Origin: a virus
Strand: one strand, 5' to 3'
DNA: 25,279 bases
IMG/VR virus record: IMGVR_UViG_3300042562_000154
Coordinates: 1-25,279 of that record
Shown here: positions 11,669 through 21,574 of the stretch, one piece after another
Layout of the letters: each line of letters opens with the position of its first letter
Position numbering within the stretch: position 1 is the first letter of the stretch
The notes under the pieces: generated by a model
The model's input: the letters and a program-made list of their open reading frames with translations, nothing else
Told to the model about the DNA's origin: nothing
The model's database searches: none
Position numbers and translations under genes: made by a program

Positions 11669-12240
11669 ACAACAACACACTTGTAACACTATGCTTGGTA
11701 GTTATTACTATGCTATCTGTAAAGCTACACTGCACGAATGAGCAATTAAACAAAGAACTTGCAATCGTTAACGCATTGGAGAATGAGAACGCAACAATAG
11801 CAACGGATAGAATGTTGGTGTTAGATAGTGTGGATGTGTTAAAGGCTACAATTGAAGCTGAGCGTATAGCGTTAACTAATCGTTTAGATGGTTACAAAAA
11901 GAAACCGACTAAGGAACGCATTAAATTAATAACTAAAATTGATTCCTTAGCTATTCAAACCGATACAGGGGCAATACTTTCTTTGCATGGTATAGACAGC
12001 ATTAACTTACTTTCTTTATCTTATGCATCATGTGTCATTCAATCTACTATTAAGGATACGATTATAGCGCATTTAACGAATGCAAATCTAAAAGCAGATA
12101 CATTGCTTGCTAATAAAGATACAATCATTAAGGCACAAACTAAAGTGGCAAAAAAAGCTATTAACTTAGTTAAGGTGTGGCAAGGTGTAAGCTATGCACT
12201 TGCTGCGTTAACCGTGATTATTTACATAACTGCAAAATAA
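11665..12240 (+). CDS. Spanin-like membrane protein with central coiled coil
   Basis: A 191-residue protein with a hydrophobic N-terminal segment (residues 5-20, TLVTLCLVVITMLSVK), a long helical and charged periplasm-type middle (ENATIATDRMLVLDSVDVLKATIEAERIAL and further heptads), and a second hydrophobic segment at the C-terminal end (about 171-190, WQGVSYALAALTVIIYITAK). It follows the endolysin in an ATGA overlap, where phages of Gram-negative hosts put genes that fuse inner and outer membranes. A single protein with hydrophobic ends is like unimolecular spanins such as T1 gp11. However, the Cys at residue 23 has KLH before it rather than a good lipobox, so the outer-membrane anchor is not proven. 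Confidence 0.5.
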   Translation: MNNNTLVTLCLVVITMLSVKLHCTNEQLNKELAIVNALENENATIATDRMLVLDSVDVLKATIEAERIALTNRLDGYKKKPTKERIKLITKIDSLAIQTDTGAILSLHGIDSINLLSLSYASCVIQSTIKDTIIAHLTNANLKADTLLANKDTIIKAQTKVAKKAINLVKVWQGVSYALAALTVIIYITAK

Positions 12241-12253
12241 TTTTAAAAAAAAC

Positions 12254-12283
12254 TTGGATTAATCAAAATAAGGTTTATTTTTG
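12254..12283 (+). promoter_or_regulatory. Promoter of Bacteroidota type, copy 1 (ATCAAAA family)
   Basis: TTG at 12254-12256, a 19-base spacer and TATTTTTG at 12276-12283 fit the Bacteroidota primary sigma consensus (TTG, N19, TAnnTTTG). The spacer holds ATCAAAA at 12262-12268, exactly 7 bases before the -7 box, as in the two related promoters at 15175 and 19341. It drives the DnaA-like gene at 12306. Confidence 0.8.
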
Positions 12284-12305
12284 TACCACACAATTAATAA
12301 ACATT

Positions 12306-12692
12306 ATGAGATTAACAACACAATTACCTTATCAAGGTATTCAATTAGCAGCACCGTTCTGCAAGAGGTCATCAATGATTAAAGATGACCGCAAAAAAGC
12401 CGAAGTTATTAAGCGCATTGTTTGCCAATACTTAGGTTTACCACTATCATTAGTTATGACACGAGGTCGCAAGCACTATTTAGTAGAAGGTAGACAAATG
12501 GCAATGTATTTTATGAGAAAATATACAAGGCTTAGTTTAAACCAAACAGGATTAGAATTTGGCGGCTTAAATCACGCAACTGTAATTCATGCGGTGCATA
12601 CAGTTAACAACATTCTTACATACGATAAAGTGTATATGCGTAAATTTAAAGACGTTGAACACTTAATTAAACAAGACCTTGTAATTAGTTAA
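12306..12692 (+). CDS. Stand-alone DnaA domain IV DNA-binding protein
   Basis: A 128-residue protein consisting almost only of the DNA-binding domain of the chromosomal initiator DnaA. Visible landmarks are LGLPLSLVMTRGRKHYLVEGRQMAMYFMRKYT (residues 43-74) and the DnaA signature GGLNHATVIHAVHTV (86-100), in which H90 and the flanking residues contact the DnaA box. The AAA+ ATPase domain of DnaA is absent. It may direct replication proteins to an origin, compete with host DnaA, or regulate its own gene. A perfect DnaA box lies 4 bases after its stop codon. The ATG at 12306 is chosen because it follows the promoter; the frame extends further upstream but through the promoter itself. Confidence 0.88.
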   Translation: MRLTTQLPYQGIQLAAPFCKRSSMIKDDRKKAEVIKRIVCQYLGLPLSLVMTRGRKHYLVEGRQMAMYFMRKYTRLSLNQTGLEFGGLNHATVIHAVHTVNNILTYDKVYMRKFKDVEHLIKQDLVIS

Positions 12693-12695
12693 TAA

Positions 12696-12704
12696 TGTGT
12701 ATAA
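12696..12704 (-). promoter_or_regulatory. Perfect DnaA box
   Basis: TGTGTATAA at 12696-12704 is, on the other strand, TTATACACA, a perfect match to the DnaA box consensus TTATNCACA. It lies directly after the gene for a DnaA domain IV protein and 6 bases before an AT-rich palindrome. No second perfect box was found by eye in the window. Confidence 0.6.
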
Positions 12705-12710
12705 CTTTAG

Positions 12711-12726
12711 TACTATATATATAGTA
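12711..12726. repeat. 16-base perfect palindrome, all but two bases A/T
   Basis: TACTATATATATAGTA equals its own reverse complement. It lies between a DnaA box and the -7-like box TACATTTG upstream of the homing endonuclease gene. It could be a duplex-opening site, an operator or a transcript hairpin. Confidence 0.7.
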
Positions 12727-12734
12727 TGCTTATG

Positions 12735-12742
12735 TACATTTG
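12735..12742 (+). promoter_or_regulatory. Possible -7 box before the HNH gene
   Basis: TACATTTG matches TAnnTTTG exactly and is followed by C, as in strong Bacteroidota promoters. No TTG lies 19-21 bases upstream, so a protein bound at the palindrome would have to replace the -33 contact. A transcript would start about at the ATG at 12747 and be almost leaderless. Confidence 0.4.
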
Positions 12743-12746
12743 CTAC

Positions 12747-13277
12747 ATGATAAAAGAACAATTTACACAAATCGAGTTTAAAGGCAAAAAAATTACAGTT
12801 GGTAATTTTGGCTCAATCCTAACTTACAATAATTTAAGAGTTAGAAAACTGCAAGTCAATTCAAGTGGGTATTTATGCTATACAATAGATAAATGTTATT
12901 TAGCGCATAGATTAGTAGCTTTTGCATGGATTGAAAACAATGATCCTATTAATAAAAAGTATGTGAATCATAAAGATGGTAACAAAAAAAACAATCACTT
13001 TAGTAATTTAGAGTGGGTTACCAAGCAAGAAAATGAATTGCATAGCGTAAGAGTATTAGGGAATAAAAGAAATATAAAAGGATTACAAGCTAATTGGGAA
13101 AACCCAACACATTGTAGAGCAATATCCATTTATGACTTAAGCGGTAATTTAATTAAAAATTGTAAGTCAGGTATTGAGGCTGCTAAATATTTAAATGTAG
13201 TACCAACTGCAATTAATAATGCTTTGAAAGGCAGAACAAAAACAACAAAAGGACATATTGTAAAATACACTAATTAA
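12747..13277 (+). CDS. HNH homing endonuclease
   Basis: A 176-residue free-standing HNH endonuclease. The core reads YLAHRLVAFAWIENNDP (residues 51-67) then KYVNHKDGNKKNNHFSNLEWVT (71-92), in which H75, N82-N83 and N87 occupy the HNH metal and catalytic positions. The C-terminal part AISIYDLSGNLIKNCKSGIEAAKYLNVVPTAINNALKGR (about 125-163) is the helix-turn-helix NUMOD1-type DNA-recognition repeat usual in phage homing endonucleases. It probably cuts a rival phage genome near its own insertion site to spread itself. An earlier in-frame ATG at 12726 lies at the end of a palindrome, so the ATG at 12747 (MIKEQF) is preferred. No intron or intein halves are seen around it. Confidence 0.88.
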   Translation: MIKEQFTQIEFKGKKITVGNFGSILTYNNLRVRKLQVNSSGYLCYTIDKCYLAHRLVAFAWIENNDPINKKYVNHKDGNKKNNHFSNLEWVTKQENELHSVRVLGNKRNIKGLQANWENPTHCRAISIYDLSGNLIKNCKSGIEAAKYLNVVPTAINNALKGRTKTTKGHIVKYTN

Positions 13278-13630: not shown

Positions 13631-14191
13631 ATGGAAAAATCACTAACCAAACTGCCTACATTGGCAGAACTCACGCAAGACTTGGAGTTAGCGTGGAAGA
13701 ATGACCAACTTAATTTACTTCTTAACCAAGCACCACCAGCGCAATGGGTAAAGACACATCCATTCATTAAAGGCTACAACTACTTGCCTATTGACAAGGT
13801 GGAATTATTACTGCGTAAAATCTTCAAAGAGTACAAGATTGAGATTACAGGACAAGGCACTGCATTTAATGGTGTGTGGGTAACGGTAAGAGTACACTTT
13901 AAATCACCTACTAATGGTGAGTGGTTGTTTTATGACGGTATAGGAGCAGCACAATTGCAAACAAAACAAGGTTCAAGTCCTGCAGACTTAGGAAACATTA
14001 ACAACGGAGCGTTAAGCATGGCGTTCCCAATTGCCAAGACAGTAGCTGTTAAGGATGCTGCGGACCATTTCGGTGCATTGTTTGGGGCAAACTTGAATCG
14101 CAAGGATGTTGTCGAATTTAAACCAGATGCAAATATAAATGAGCAATTTACTAAGTCAAACGCTGAAAAGATGGGAGGTAAAAATGGCTAA
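13631..14191 (+). CDS. Single-strand annealing protein, Rad52-like
   Basis: A 186-residue protein with features of phage single-strand annealing proteins of the Rad52 group: WVKTHPFIKGYNYLPIDKVELLLRKIF (residues 39-66), then a beta sheet with GTAFNGVWVTVRVHFK and EWLFYDGIGAAQLQTKQGSSPADL, and a conserved helix NNGALSMAFPIAKTVAVKDAADHFGALFG (about 122-152). Such proteins anneal complementary single strands during phage recombination and concatemer formation. The following gene encodes a YqaJ-type exonuclease, which would make the single strands, and overlaps by 8 bases. The exact subfamily (Rad52, Erf or Redbeta) cannot be fixed by eye. Confidence 0.72.
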   Translation: MEKSLTKLPTLAELTQDLELAWKNDQLNLLLNQAPPAQWVKTHPFIKGYNYLPIDKVELLLRKIFKEYKIEITGQGTAFNGVWVTVRVHFKSPTNGEWLFYDGIGAAQLQTKQGSSPADLGNINNGALSMAFPIAKTVAVKDAADHFGALFGANLNRKDVVEFKPDANINEQFTKSNAEKMGGKNG

Positions 14192-14858
14192 GTATAACGT
14201 ATTCGAAACTAAAGAAGACTGGGCAAAGTTCCGCAGGGGATTGTTTACCGCAAGTGAGGTACACAGATTATTAGCCGAACCAAAACTGAAAGCTGATAAA
14301 GAAGCGGGCAATCTTAGCGAAGGCGCAAAAACTTATGTTCGTGAGCGTGTAGCTATCCTACTTGCGCCCGAAGAACCACAGCACTATAATTCCAACATGG
14401 AGCGAGGTAACGAAGCAGAACCACAAGCTGTATTAGCTTATGCTGAAAGTATAGGCAAGTCGGTTAATGATGATGACTTTGTTTACACTTCGGTAGGTGG
14501 TTTTGTGTTTTTTACTGATGAGGACCACAACGCAGGAGGCACGCCTGACATTATAATCGGCAAATCAATCTGCGAAATTAAATGTCCACTAAGTAAAACG
14601 CACCTTGAATACTTAATGATGCGTGATGCTGAGGAATTAAAGAAAGCAGTACCTCAATATTATAGTCAAATGCAAATGAATATGTGGCTATGTGGTGCAG
14701 ACGATGGTGTGTTTATTTCTTTTGATGACCGTTACTACAACCAGGTACATCACTTGCACTCAATCTACGTTCCAAGAGATGAGGAACACATCGACCTAAT
14801 TAAATCAAAGCTACTTAAAGCAAAAGAATACAAAGACCAAATATTAAATACAATATGA
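14184..14858 (+). CDS. YqaJ-type viral recombinase exonuclease
   Basis: A 224-residue nuclease of the PD-(D/E)XK superfamily. It carries FRRGLFTASEVHRLL near the start (residues 16-30), an ERGNEAEP helix at 73-80, the core motif GGTPDIIIG with D122, then CEIKCP with E131 and K133, and a QYYSQMQMNMW helix near 170. Together these residues bind the metal and place the scissile DNA end. The enzyme would degrade one strand of linear DNA to feed the annealing protein encoded just upstream. The ATG at 14184 (MAKYNV) is preferred over an earlier frame opening at 14139 because a good Shine-Dalgarno sequence, GGGAGG, sits 5 bases before it, unusual for this genome. Confidence 0.85.
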   Translation: MAKYNVFETKEDWAKFRRGLFTASEVHRLLAEPKLKADKEAGNLSEGAKTYVRERVAILLAPEEPQHYNSNMERGNEAEPQAVLAYAESIGKSVNDDDFVYTSVGGFVFFTDEDHNAGGTPDIIIGKSICEIKCPLSKTHLEYLMMRDAEELKKAVPQYYSQMQMNMWLCGADDGVFISFDDRYYNQVHHLHSIYVPRDEEHIDLIKSKLLKAKEYKDQILNTI

Positions 14859-17245: not shown

Positions 17246-17944
17246 ATGAGAAATAATTATATTGTAATTCAAGGATGGATGATTACTGATTTAAATTTAA
17301 ATGGTAGTAGTCTTTTAACATTTGCCTTGATTTATGGGTTTTCACAAGATGGTAATTCCGAGTTTACAGGTTCAATTAATTATGTTTGTAAATGGTTAAA
17401 CTGTTCAAGACCAACAGCCATGAAAGCATTGAAGGAATTATGTGAGATGGATTTGATTGTTAAGTCTGAATTAGTGGTTAATGGTGTTACTTTTAACCGA
17501 TATAAAATATCTTTAGAGGGGGTAAAGAAACTTTACACAGGTAGTAAAGAAACTTTACAGGGGGGTAGTAAAGAAATTTTACCTAATAATACTACTTTAT
17601 ATAATACTAATAATAATATAGATATAGTAATACCTAAATCTGAACTTGAGTTGACATTTGATTCTTATTTGGAAATGAGGAAGCAAATAAAGAAACCTAC
17701 AACACCTTATGCAGTAAATTTAATTAAAAAGAAATTGGTTCAGATGACACAAAATAACGAGAGTGAAATGTGCGACATACTAAATCAATCAATTGTTAAT
17801 AGTTGGGCAGGTATTTACCCAATAAAAAATACCTTTGTAAAAAAAGAAAAGCCAACAATGCGAACAACTAACGAAGTATTTGACAACGTAATTGAACGCA
17901 TAAGGAATGGAGAGGATACAACCGTTAAGATAATTGGATTATGA
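17246..17944 (+). CDS. Replication initiator with winged-helix domain
   Basis: A 232-residue protein that most likely opens the phage origin and recruits the helicase. Residues 1-90 are a winged helix: IQGWMITDLNLNGSSLLTFALIYGFSQDG, then INYVCKWLNCSRPTAMKALKELCEMDLIVKSE, with the recognition helix SRPTAMKALKEL. A low-complexity linker (residues about 92-132, with repeated GSKETLQGGSKEIL and Asn-rich NNTTLYNTNNN) separates a C-terminal helical domain (DSYLEMRKQIKKPTTPYAVNLIKKKL, DILNQSIVNSWAGIYPI) similar to the C-terminal ends of DnaD or phage O-like replication proteins. Three iterons and an AT-rich tract are coded within the linker, as in the lambda O gene. The strong AAGGAGG before ATG 17246 is rare in this genome. 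Confidence 0.78.
   Translation: MRNNYIVIQGWMITDLNLNGSSLLTFALIYGFSQDGNSEFTGSINYVCKWLNCSRPTAMKALKELCEMDLIVKSELVVNGVTFNRYKISLEGVKKLYTGSKETLQGGSKEILPNNTTLYNTNNNIDIVIPKSELELTFDSYLEMRKQIKKPTTPYAVNLIKKKLVQMTQNNESEMCDILNQSIVNSWAGIYPIKNTFVKKEKPTMRTTNEVFDNVIERIRNGEDTTVKIIGL
17522..17582. repeat. Three origin iterons inside the initiator gene
   Basis: GTAAAGAAACTTTAC occurs at 17522-17536 and 17544-17558, and GTAAAGAAATTTTAC (one change) at 17568-17582. Each copy is itself an inverted repeat (GTAAAG/CTTTAC around AAA). The spacing of 22 and 24 bases puts the copies about two helical turns apart, on one face of the DNA. They lie in the linker-coding part of the initiator gene. Confidence 0.78.
17584..17632. 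other. AT-rich tract beside iterons (candidate duplex-opening element)
   Basis: Only 5 of these 49 bases are G or C. The stretch is made of repeated TAATA/TATA units and begins directly after the third iteron, matching the order iterons then AT-rich region of lambda ori. It encodes the Asn-rich part of the initiator's linker. Confidence 0.68.
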
Positions 17945-18615: not shown

Positions 18616-19337
18616 GTGAAATAATACTATCAACCAGCGTAAGTAAATTAAACAACGCTGAGTTAAGAATAAAGATAGCCGAGTTAATAAGATGGGCGCA
18701 TAACCGCATGGGTTCAAAAAAAGACCACGAATTTGAGGCTATGGTGATGTTTGATTCAAACGAGATATGCAGGGACTTGCAAACCATAACGGAATTTAAA
18801 AATTTAAAGTTACCAGAACTATCAAAAATATTCCAAAAAGGTTTGACAAATGGATATGGCGATTTTTTTGGTTTGAATTGCGTAACTTATGCCAAATGGA
18901 TTAGAGCGTATTTAAGCGAGCAAAAAACAGCGGGTGGAATATTAGAGCATCAAGTTGTTAAAGCACGTTTAGCAGAGGCAACAACCCCATCAGAAACCGA
19001 AAGGAGGGAGTTAAGCGAAGCTAACCTACAAAGAGTAATTGAAAAGTACAAACGTACAGGCATAATAGATGACAACGGGAACCCTGCTTACTTGTATCTT
19101 TGGAACACGGGTAGAATAAGGTTTGATAATACGGAATGGGAGGCACTAATCGCTAAAGCTACTGAGTTAGAAACTAAAAAACTAACAAGGTTAAGGGAAA
19201 GAGCGAAAGATGAGGTAGACAAAGTGCGCGTAATGGAGTTAGATCGGGAATTAAACAACTTAAATTTAAACATAATTAAGACTACTGCACGGAACCTGGC
19301 AGTTGAGAATTGGGTAAAACAAGAAATAAATAAATAA
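18612..19337 (+). CDS. Replication-operon protein of unknown function
   Basis: A 241-residue, mostly helical protein. Visible parts are a central domain KLPELSKIFQKGLTNGYGDFFGLNCVTYAKWIRAYL (about residues 65-103), a pattern met in Bacteroidota mobile elements, then helices with ETERRELSEANLQRVIEKYKRTG, and a C-terminal coiled coil (LETKKLTRLRERAKDEVDKVRVMELDRELNNLNLN). It follows the initiator and methyltransferase in an ATGA overlap, the place of a helicase loader in lambda-like replication modules. No Walker motif is visible, which argues against a DnaC-type loader, but lambda P-type loaders also lack one. The loader role is inference. Confidence 0.55.
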   Translation: MSEIILSTSVSKLNNAELRIKIAELIRWAHNRMGSKKDHEFEAMVMFDSNEICRDLQTITEFKNLKLPELSKIFQKGLTNGYGDFFGLNCVTYAKWIRAYLSEQKTAGGILEHQVVKARLAEATTPSETERRELSEANLQRVIEKYKRTGIIDDNGNPAYLYLWNTGRIRFDNTEWEALIAKATELETKKLTRLRERAKDEVDKVRVMELDRELNNLNLNIIKTTARNLAVENWVKQEINK

Positions 19338-19340
19338 AAA

Positions 19341-19370
19341 TTTGTTTTATCAAAAAAAGAATTAGTTTTG
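19341..19370 (+). promoter_or_regulatory. Promoter of Bacteroidota type, copy 3 (ATCAAAA family)
   Basis: TTTG at 19341-19344, 18-base spacer, TAGTTTTG at 19363-19370. ATCAAAA lies at 19349-19355, 7 bases before the -7 box as in the other two copies. The following TACCACACAA is identical to the sequence after copy 1. It drives the gene at 19392. Confidence 0.78.
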
Positions 19371-19391
19371 TACCACACAAACCAAAAACAT

Positions 19392-19604
19392 ATGAAAGAA
19401 ACATTTAAAATTATCTTCACGTATTTATCGGCAGTTATGATACTTGCTTTAATACTTGGTAACTTAGTACAGTATATGCAATGTAAGGCGCATATTAATA
19501 CAATCATTTACCTACAAAAAGAAATCCAATATCAGCAAGGGGTAACCATAAAGGTGCTTGATAAAGTAACTGACAAAAACGGATATAGAAAGATTGAGAA
19601 TTAA
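19392..19604 (+). CDS. Small single-span membrane protein
   Basis: A 70-residue protein with a basic start (MKETFKIIF), one transmembrane helix (about residues 8-28, IFTYLSAVMILALILGNLVQYM), and a polar C-terminal part (LQKEIQYQQGVTIKVLDKVTDK) that would face the other side. An earlier frame opening at 19368 lies within the -7 box, so ATG 19392 is used. It ends in a TAATG junction with the next gene. Function unknown. Confidence 0.6.
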   Translation: MKETFKIIFTYLSAVMILALILGNLVQYMQCKAHINTIIYLQKEIQYQQGVTIKVLDKVTDKNGYRKIEN

Positions 19605-20097: not shown

Positions 20098-20187
20098 CGA
20101 GCGGTTAGAAGGCTTTAACATTACATTCAAAATATAAATGGGTTTATAAGTTTGAATCAACTATCGGCTGGAGTTACGCTCGTTTTT
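20098..20187 (+). ncRNA. Structured leader of the ninG-like gene
   Basis: CGAGCG (20098-20103) pairs with CGCTCG (20177-20182), which is followed by five T (20183-20187). TAAC (20116-20119) pairs with GTTA (20173-20176), stacked on the first helix. A separate hairpin inside has ATTCAAA (20125-20131) with TTTGAAT (20151-20157) and ATAAA (20134-20138) with TTTAT (20143-20147), loop TGGG. This fills the gap before ATG 20191 and could act as an attenuator. No known family is recognised. Confidence 0.45.
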
Positions 20188-20190
20188 AAA

Positions 20191-20709
20191 ATGAAAGAAA
20201 TTAAAAGAAAATGCAAGTATTGTTTAGAACGCTACACACCAAAGTATAGCACAACGGAACCATGCCCAAAGTACGAATGCAGGATAAAGCATTTAGAGGT
20301 TAACACATCCAAGATAAACCGAGTAAACAAGGCAAAGGCAAGGGATGATATTAAAAGCTATGCACAGCGTTTAGGAGAGGCAAAGAAAGTGTTTCAGAAG
20401 TGGATACGAATGAGGGATAAGGACAAACCTTGCATAAGTTGTGGTAGCGTATCATCAACTGTATGGGATGGTGGACATTATAAGAAAGCAGAAATATACA
20501 GTGGTGTTATATTCCACGAAAACAACGTACATTTGCAGTGCGGAAAGTGTAACAGGTTCTTGGGAGGTAACGAATTAAATTACCGAGATGGGTTGATTGC
20601 TAAGATAGGAGAACAAGCGGTTATTCAACTTGAGAAATTAGCCGACACAACACGCATAAAACGCTACACTAATGAGGAACTTGAACAAATTAAATTAAAA
20701 TACAAATAA
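20191..20709 (+). CDS. ninG: NinG/Rap-like recombination nuclease
   Basis: A 172-residue protein like lambda NinG (Rap), a structure-specific nuclease that acts on recombination branches. An N-terminal zinc-like site has C8-KY-C11 with C25 and C30. The main domain has CISCG (81-85), WDGGHYKKA (92-100, the DAGHY-type motif with the catalytic His), then FHENNVHLQCGKCNRFLGGN (109-127) with C117 and C120, which together build the HNH-type zinc and active site. A TTG-opened frame from 20152 would run through the structured leader, so ATG 20191 is chosen. It fits the annealing protein and exonuclease encoded at 13.6-14.9 kb as a third recombination function. Confidence 0.87.
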   Translation: MKEIKRKCKYCLERYTPKYSTTEPCPKYECRIKHLEVNTSKINRVNKAKARDDIKSYAQRLGEAKKVFQKWIRMRDKDKPCISCGSVSSTVWDGGHYKKAEIYSGVIFHENNVHLQCGKCNRFLGGNELNYRDGLIAKIGEQAVIQLEKLADTTRIKRYTNEELEQIKLKYK

Positions 20710-20974: not shown

Positions 20975-20988
20975 GTTATAAACATTAT

Positions 20989-21019
20989 TTGGTAAATAAA
21001 CTTTACGATTATAGATTTG
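20989..21019 (+). promoter_or_regulatory. Promoter of Bacteroidota type before the sigma-like gene
   Basis: TTG at 20989-20991, 20-base spacer, TAGATTTG at 21012-21019 (perfect TAnnTTTG). It has no ATCAAAA heptamer, so it belongs to another class than the three earlier promoters. A 14-base palindrome lies just after the expected start of transcription. Confidence 0.65.
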
Positions 21020-21073: not shown

Positions 21074-21102
21074 AGAGGGGATGGCGTAATGTTATCCCTT
21101 TT
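21074..21102 (+). other. Hairpin just before the sigma-like gene
   Basis: AGAGGGGAT (21074-21082) pairs with ATCCCTTTT (21094-21102), 9 bp with two G-T pairs, loop of 11 bases. T-rich sequence follows up to ATG 21113, so it may terminate or attenuate the leader transcript. Loop and arms (GTAAT, ATCCC) resemble the hairpin after the capsid gene at 3626. Confidence 0.5.
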
Positions 21103-21112
21103 GTTTTTTAAC

Positions 21113-21574
21113 ATGAGAGATAAATTTATTAATCATATTACCCGAAACAAAGAATACCTTAACCTATGCAGGAAGGTATCGGGGCAGCATTACCAAGATT
21201 TATTTCAAGAAATAGCCATCCTTTTACTTACAATTCCTGAGAATAAACTACCACAGGAAAGCTATTTTAATTTTTGGTTTTATCGCGTAGCAACTAATCT
21301 TTGTTCAAAGCACGGAACATACGGTTATCAGTTTAGATTTGAAACCGTTTCACTTGAGGATTTAAGCAAAGAGATAGTTGAGCAGATTGAATATGTTGAA
21401 AGGGTAGATGAATATATGCCTGCTGAAGATTTGCTAATGGATTTGCCAGAGTTTGAAAATAGAGTAATACTTTTATATAACGAGTTAGGAAATATGCGTA
21501 AGGTGCAACGCATGACAGGAATAAGTTACTCAGCACTTAGAATGGTTAAAGAAAAATTGAAAAATATAAGATGA
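21113..21574 (+). CDS. Sigma-70-like transcription factor
   Basis: A 153-residue protein with the two-part layout of ECF-like sigma factors. Region 2 looks like EYLNLCRKVSGQHYQDLFQEIAILLLTI with DLFQE in place of the DLxQE core-binding motif, then NFWFYRVATN (FxxWLYRIAxN-like). Region 4 looks like LPEFENRVILLYNELGNMRKVQRMTGISYSALRMVKEKL, with a helix-turn-helix in the last 25 residues. Similar proteins occur in many Bacteroidota phages near glycosyltransferase genes. It could direct polymerase to middle or late phage promoters. An opening at 21089 would lie in a leader hairpin; ATG 21113 is used. The match is divergent, so polymerase binding is not certain. Confidence 0.65.
   Translation: MRDKFINHITRNKEYLNLCRKVSGQHYQDLFQEIAILLLTIPENKLPQESYFNFWFYRVATNLCSKHGTYGYQFRFETVSLEDLSKEIVEQIEYVERVDEYMPAEDLLMDLPEFENRVILLYNELGNMRKVQRMTGISYSALRMVKEKLKNIR

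Follow-up and report, generated by a model that had tools for sequence, protein, structure and literature searches.

The 25,279-nucleotide stretch of DNA analyzed here (hereafter the window) comes from a phage, probably one of Bacteroidota, and very probably carries a replication origin at 17522–17632, inside the gene for its own initiator. We propose that dimers of the initiator's winged-helix domain would use the recognition helix to bind three palindromic iterons spaced by about two helical turns, with residue 56 as the main determinant of iteron specificity, that the assembled complex would melt the AT-rich tract directly downstream, and that the C-terminal domain would recruit the replicative helicase or a loader for it. 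Binding, dimer formation, melting, helicase recruitment and origin activity are steps that we infer from sequence. The features concerned are these:

17246–17944, + strand: initiator gene, 232 aa, with an N-terminal winged helix, a disordered linker and a helical C-terminal domain (Pfam, PHROG, AlphaFold2)
17273–17509, + strand: predicted winged-helix DNA-binding domain, residues 10–88 (AlphaFold2, Foldseek)
17408–17446, + strand: predicted recognition helix, residues 55–67 (AlphaFold2; co-variation of residues 53–62)
17411–17413, + strand: codon 56, CCA (Pro), the top co-varying residue
17522–17536, + strand: iteron 1, GTAAAGAAACTTTAC, in frame 0, coding VKKLY
17544–17558, + strand: iteron 2, GTAAAGAAACTTTAC, identical to iteron 1, in frame +1, coding SKETL
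17568–17582, + strand: iteron 3, GTAAAGAAATTTTAC, with one change (C to T), in frame +1, coding SKEIL
17583–17632, + strand: AT-rich tract, the presumed DNA unwinding element, 6 G/C in 50
17610–17625, + strand: recombination border (blastn)
17642–17800, + strand: helical C-terminal domain, residues 133–185, the presumed helicase or loader contact (AlphaFold2, pLDDT about 95)
20988–21019, + strand: Bacteroidota-type promoter-like TTTG-N20-TAGATTTG, between genes, before an ORF at 21089–21574
20992–21006, + strand: fourth iteron-like site, GTAAATAAACTTTAC, intergenic, with one mismatch, the window's sole further copy at one mismatch or fewer

The initiator and its internal repeats

The first-pass annotation had described three repeats, two identical and one changed, with start-to-start distances of 22 and 24 and a following 49-base tract with 5 G/C, and all of these were confirmed in place. 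The inverted symmetry (6+3+6) is perfect in iterons 1 and 2, while iteron 3 has one arm pair broken; a perfect copy occupies the iteron 3 position in the close relative L002. Sites with three mismatches or fewer numbered nine in the window, where 2.4 would be expected, and all of 100 shuffles stayed below nine. The 49-mer starting at 17584 has at most 5 G/C, and equally poor 49-mers make up 11 of the 25,231 in the window, in four places. Three marks of lambda-type organization were tested and found, namely iterons in tandem within the initiator gene, lying between its DNA-binding and C-terminal domains, an AT-rich tract directly beside them, and constraint on the iterons at the DNA level (see below). 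The cumulative GC-skew minimum that had been suggested as a further mark of the origin is absent, since the skew rises monotonically across the window, as it does in the complete relative FCV-1, in which every annotated gene lies on one strand; this measure is uninformative here.

In the AlphaFold2 model, residues 10–88 form a winged helix mostly with pLDDT above 90, residues 100–127 fall below 50, and helices occupy residues 133–185. The iterons are coded within the predicted disordered linker, which backs the earlier placement of the repeats in low-complexity linker sequence. Because it is disordered, the linker may tolerate iterons, leaving the DNA selectable for them in whatever reading frame they fall. 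The protein matches PF13730 (HTH_36) with an E value of 2.4e-8 and 34.1 bits against a gathering score of 25, and has a weak match to DnaD_N (0.008). Among PHROG families it matches phrog_6969 (1.8e-28) and phrog_678, named 'replication initiation O-like' (5.8e-17). Pfam gave no match to the lambda O family at E values up to 1, none to RepA_N (PF06970), and none to DnaB_2 in the C-terminal domain. The best solved relatives found by Foldseek were DnaD (9a5c, 4e-4; 2v79, 4e-3) and the N-terminal domains of plasmid Rep proteins (4pt7, 6e-4; 5kbj, 3e-3; also 4pta), with many other winged helices scoring nearly as well, and a sequence search against solved structures returned weak matches to generic regulators only. 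The modeled fold is thus nearer to DnaD and to plasmid RepA_N initiators, and the earlier label 'lambda-O-like' suits the way in which the system would work, not the family, which is PF13730 and DnaD-RepA_N-like, without a lambda-O Pfam match.

Repeats, recognition helix and cassette exchange across the family

Three protein-guided scans together with pattern scans yielded 118 distinct initiators, of which 100 were non-redundant and long enough for analysis. A de novo search for spaced palindromes, calibrated on synonymous shuffles, found linker palindromes that exceeded the 95% null in 77 of these 100 relatives and the 99% null in 51; the other 23 had no repeat above the 95% threshold, and in Lactobacillus phage LL-Ku only a weak repeat was found. 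Within the 77 genes, repeat spacings were 20–24 bp in nearly all cases, with a peak at 22–24, and the copies were spread over two or three reading frames in 62. Median GC in the 50 bases after the last copy was 18%, compared with 32% gene-wide, and each of the 77 genes showed this drop; GC in the 50 bases preceding the first copy was 32%. Whole-record searches of 20 records located sites with one mismatch or fewer in the initiator cluster alone, except for the fourth site of the window and of the near-identical G001.

The half-site letters of the palindromes vary from subfamily to subfamily, and distances between half-sites correlated with distances between residues 53–62 after the rest of the domain had been removed (partial Mantel 0.60, p 0.0005, n=28), as they did in the larger set (0.44, p 0.0005, n=77). 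Part of the loci had been fetched by the iteron pattern, a possible sample bias, and the co-variation held when loci found by protein only were used (partial Mantel 0.56). Seven other blocks of the domain showed little or no correlation, the best being residues 5–14 (0.17, p 0.007). By mutual information, residue 56 was the top column (z 18.8, the next being 6.8), and it still ranked first at redundancy cuts of 60% and 50%. Proline at this position accompanies a GTAAA half-site in 30 of 32 cases, lysine GTGTA in 5 of 5, arginine GTGA in 9 of 12 (with three misfits), asparagine GTGCA in 2 of 3 and serine GTGTC in 2 of 3; with glutamine the half-site is variable. Among named phages outside the set, FCV-1 (N with GTGCAG), bajarodcaudo virus 2 (R with GTGAAC) and Streptococcus phage MismyG (P with GTAAAA) agree, whereas BF344P1 and B40-8, with Q at 56, lie outside the common Q patterns. 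The MismyG initiator has an SKPT helix and a GTAAA half-site like those of the window and matches both PF06970 and PF13730; its match to RepA_N ties the phage family to plasmid initiators. A Eubacterium eligens plasmid fits the residue-56 rule (SRPT, GTAAAA), yet is near-identical to the viral locus L108. The Treponema succinifaciens plasmid relative breaks the rule, that of T. saccharophilum has a weak repeat, and no repeat was found in that of Fusobacterium varium. Overall, the repeats appear to change in step with the recognition helix of the initiator, chiefly residue 56, which supports binding of the one by the other.

Comparisons by blastn show that the winged helix, the iterons and the AT tract are exchanged together, as a single cassette. 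Five relatives (L005, L033, L023, L021 and L026) match the DNA of the window only from about 17246–17266 to 17610–17625, a segment that comprises these three elements. In the close relative L004, the initiator-gene DNA is common with the window only from 17610 onward, and in place of all that precedes this point in the gene stands an unrelated N-terminal domain that lacks these iterons, within a backbone roughly 78–91% identical to the window on both sides of the replication region. The C-terminal part is therefore retained where the N-terminal cassette has been swapped.

A DnaB-type helicase gene adjoins the iteron-bearing initiators of L049 and L055, and annotated helicases adjoin related initiators in FCV-1 (shortly after gp53), MismyG and the F. 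varium plasmid. The presence of helicase genes beside such initiators in relatives supports the proposed recruitment step; none encoding a helicase or loader was recognized among the window proteins scanned, which are a subset of the genes of a fragment. The replication region is flanked by genes for a YqaJ-type exonuclease (14139–14858) and a NinG/Rap-like junction endonuclease (20152–20709), a lambda-like recombination gene set. Further upstream, a gene at 12177–12692 encodes a stand-alone DnaA C-terminal DNA-binding domain (PF08299, 2.2e-18), with the window's only TTATNCACA box just past it at 12696, and 12726–13277 encodes an HNH endonuclease (phrog_59, 2e-32), perhaps a homing endonuclease. 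A repeat of about 74 bp, at 12244–12317 and 19331–19403, contains TAnTTTTGTACCACACAA in both copies and is probably a duplicated promoter.

Alternative roles for the palindromes

The palindromes could instead be operators, with the winged-helix protein acting as a transcription regulator of its own or nearby genes and no origin being present. This idea draws on the fourth site, which sits in the spacer of a promoter-like sequence with TTTG at 20988 and TAGATTTG at 21012, resembling the Bacteroidota -33/-7 consensus TTTG/TAnnTTTG (PMC2483708). Patterns of the TTTG-N20 type number six in the window against 2.1 expected, so that a promoter at 20988–21019 is likely, not certain; the ORF that follows it has a weak match to Sigma70_r2 (E 0.03). 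The near-identical phage L002 retains the fourth site; in L004, where the cognate DNA-binding domain is gone, the site has been lost too but the -7 box remains. An operator role is also in keeping with the MarR/Crp-type regulators returned by the profile search of solved structures, and with the finding that bacterial chromosomes carry this palindrome in pairs at places other than initiator genes. Several observations speak against it, however: the sites lie deep in the gene, are regularly spaced and are followed by AT-rich DNA in 77 of 77 cases, the fold most resembles those of DnaD and plasmid Rep, related initiators have helicase genes as neighbors, and most relatives have no site with one mismatch or fewer outside the initiator gene. 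We therefore consider an operator function in place of an origin unlikely. A dual role, as origin and operator, is possible, and the simplest reading of the fourth site is that the initiator may also regulate the promoter at 20988–21019. We offer more tentatively, as an idea with somewhat less than an even chance of being right, the combined proposal that residue 56 largely sets the origin repeat throughout this phage and plasmid family and that the initiator of this phage also occupies the promoter at 20992, which would couple transcription of the following operon to replication. If residue 56 does set the repeat, the specificities of origin and initiator could be read from each other.

It is also conceivable that a host protein, rather than the initiator, binds the iterons, and scans for the repeat itself bear on this. 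A protein-blind search of 2.9 million viral contigs for two exact iterons 4–12 bases apart matched 34 stretches, 29 of which, by our reading, fall within winged-helix initiator linkers, most with the same frames and spacing as in the window; this count favors the origin reading. Two of the matches (L029 and L035) are unrelated GC-rich DNA. In L017, L032 and L036, four copies stand between structural genes, with very AT-rich DNA immediately after them; the iterons there are exact and 20–22 bp apart, possibly marking an origin outside any initiator gene. The same pattern matched six stretches in bacterial genomes, three bearing an initiator (a Dyadobacter prophage, a Treponema contig and a Lachnospiraceae contig) and three without one. 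In the Dyadobacter alkalitolerans prophage (L044/L051), up to ten copies or near-copies occur in one initiator gene, which an ATPase-like gene adjoins. Palindrome pairs outside initiator genes occur in L053 and L054 (Bacteroidaceae MAGs), L050 and L029, and are probably bound by another regulator. Since matches also occur at places without an initiator, the 15-mer alone is no proof of an origin. A host factor would account for the presence of the same 15-mer in L044 and L049, whose initiators belong to other subfamilies, and between the structural genes of L017, but the site changes with the recognition helix of the initiator across 77 initiators, and a search of the window revealed no DnaA box near the iterons, the single TTATACACA box at 12696 being fewer than chance would give. 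Binding by a host protein instead of the initiator is thus very improbable.

Equally hard to credit is that the repeats reflect a protein feature, in which recurring linker peptides such as GSKETL are coded by similar DNA by chance, even though this peptide is repeated and is conserved in the subfamily. Iteron 1 codes VKKLY in another frame, and other subfamilies retain palindromes with quite different peptides (ENHHRG, EQSS, SAET). Among synonymous shuffles that kept both protein and codon usage, three copies at one mismatch or fewer arose in 2 of 20,000, and the palindrome-triple score of the real gene was not attained in any of 3,000. In 17 non-redundant homologues with this arrangement, codon identity at same-residue pairs was 97% in the iterons and 57% elsewhere, and the core iteron codons were 100% identical, compared with 24–51% for invariant leucines elsewhere in the domain. 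The use of two reading frames, the rarity with which synonymous shuffling recreates the repeats and the difference in codon identity demonstrate that the repeats are not chance and are conserved as DNA, not as protein, and on these in silico grounds (other frame, codon identity, different subfamily peptides) we rejected the peptide explanation. An alignment of homologous initiator genes had been proposed as a check on the origin, and close and distant homologues alike keep the repeats beyond protein constraint. Finally, hairpins acting in the mRNA to control translation or stability have next to no likelihood, because, although a hairpin with a 6-bp stem and a 3-base loop is possible in each copy, the predicted fold is no better than that of shuffles (z -0.85; 33 of 200 fold as well) and the repeat letters co-vary with the DNA-recognition helix.

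Relation to known origins and implications

An origin within the initiator gene and bound by its product, lambda-O-like in its working, is on our best reading an already known kind. In lambda, inverted-repeat iterons and then an AT-rich tract lie in the middle of initiator gene O (PMC7466680), and the window has the same order. Lambda has four 19-bp imperfect inverted repeats, whereas the window has three 15-mers; its protein lacks a lambda-O Pfam match, though matching a PHROG named O-like, and no lambda-P-like partner was recognized among the window proteins scanned. Phage SPP1 likewise has oriL repeats and an AT-rich unwinding element inside initiator gene 38, together with a second origin, oriR (PMC6316719); none such has been established in the window.

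Closer parallels in protein architecture are found in plasmids. The RepA_N initiator of pSK41 has a DnaD-like winged helix that binds boxes in its own rep gene, a dispensable linker and a separate C-terminal domain (PMC5703833). In the hybrid Rep of pPR9, a module of about 500 bp comprising the PF13730 domain and the origin was swapped while the C-terminal domain stayed in place, and the region with this Rep replicates autonomously (PMC5703833, a review). The window, too, appears to combine a DnaD-like winged helix, repeats inside its own gene and a separate C-terminal domain, and the exchange in L004 and relatives is the same kind of swap as that of the PF13730 domain plus origin in pPR9. It differs in that its protein is phage-coded, with PF13730 but no RepA_N Pfam match and with a C-terminal domain lacking DnaB_2. 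Among phages, gp53 of Flavobacterium phage FCV-1, annotated only as a hypothetical protein, has the same winged helix, three repeats at 22 and 24 bp and an AT-rich tract after them; its iteron letters differ (GTGCAGAAA), it has N at position 56, and its outer copies are imperfect.

What seems new is that specificity in this family apparently follows a one-residue code. We found no earlier report of such a code in the open-access literature, whose coverage is not exhaustive, and no Bacteroides phage origins there either, which does not prove their absence. The analysis provides predicted origins for dozens of mostly uncultured phages and some plasmids, for which we found no described origin. 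The exchange of the L004 cassette is a natural experiment paralleling the hybrid plasmid initiator of pPR9. A link of nearly one residue between initiator and iteron, if true, would explain changes of specificity among related replicons, and would allow incompatibility groups to be read from sequence.
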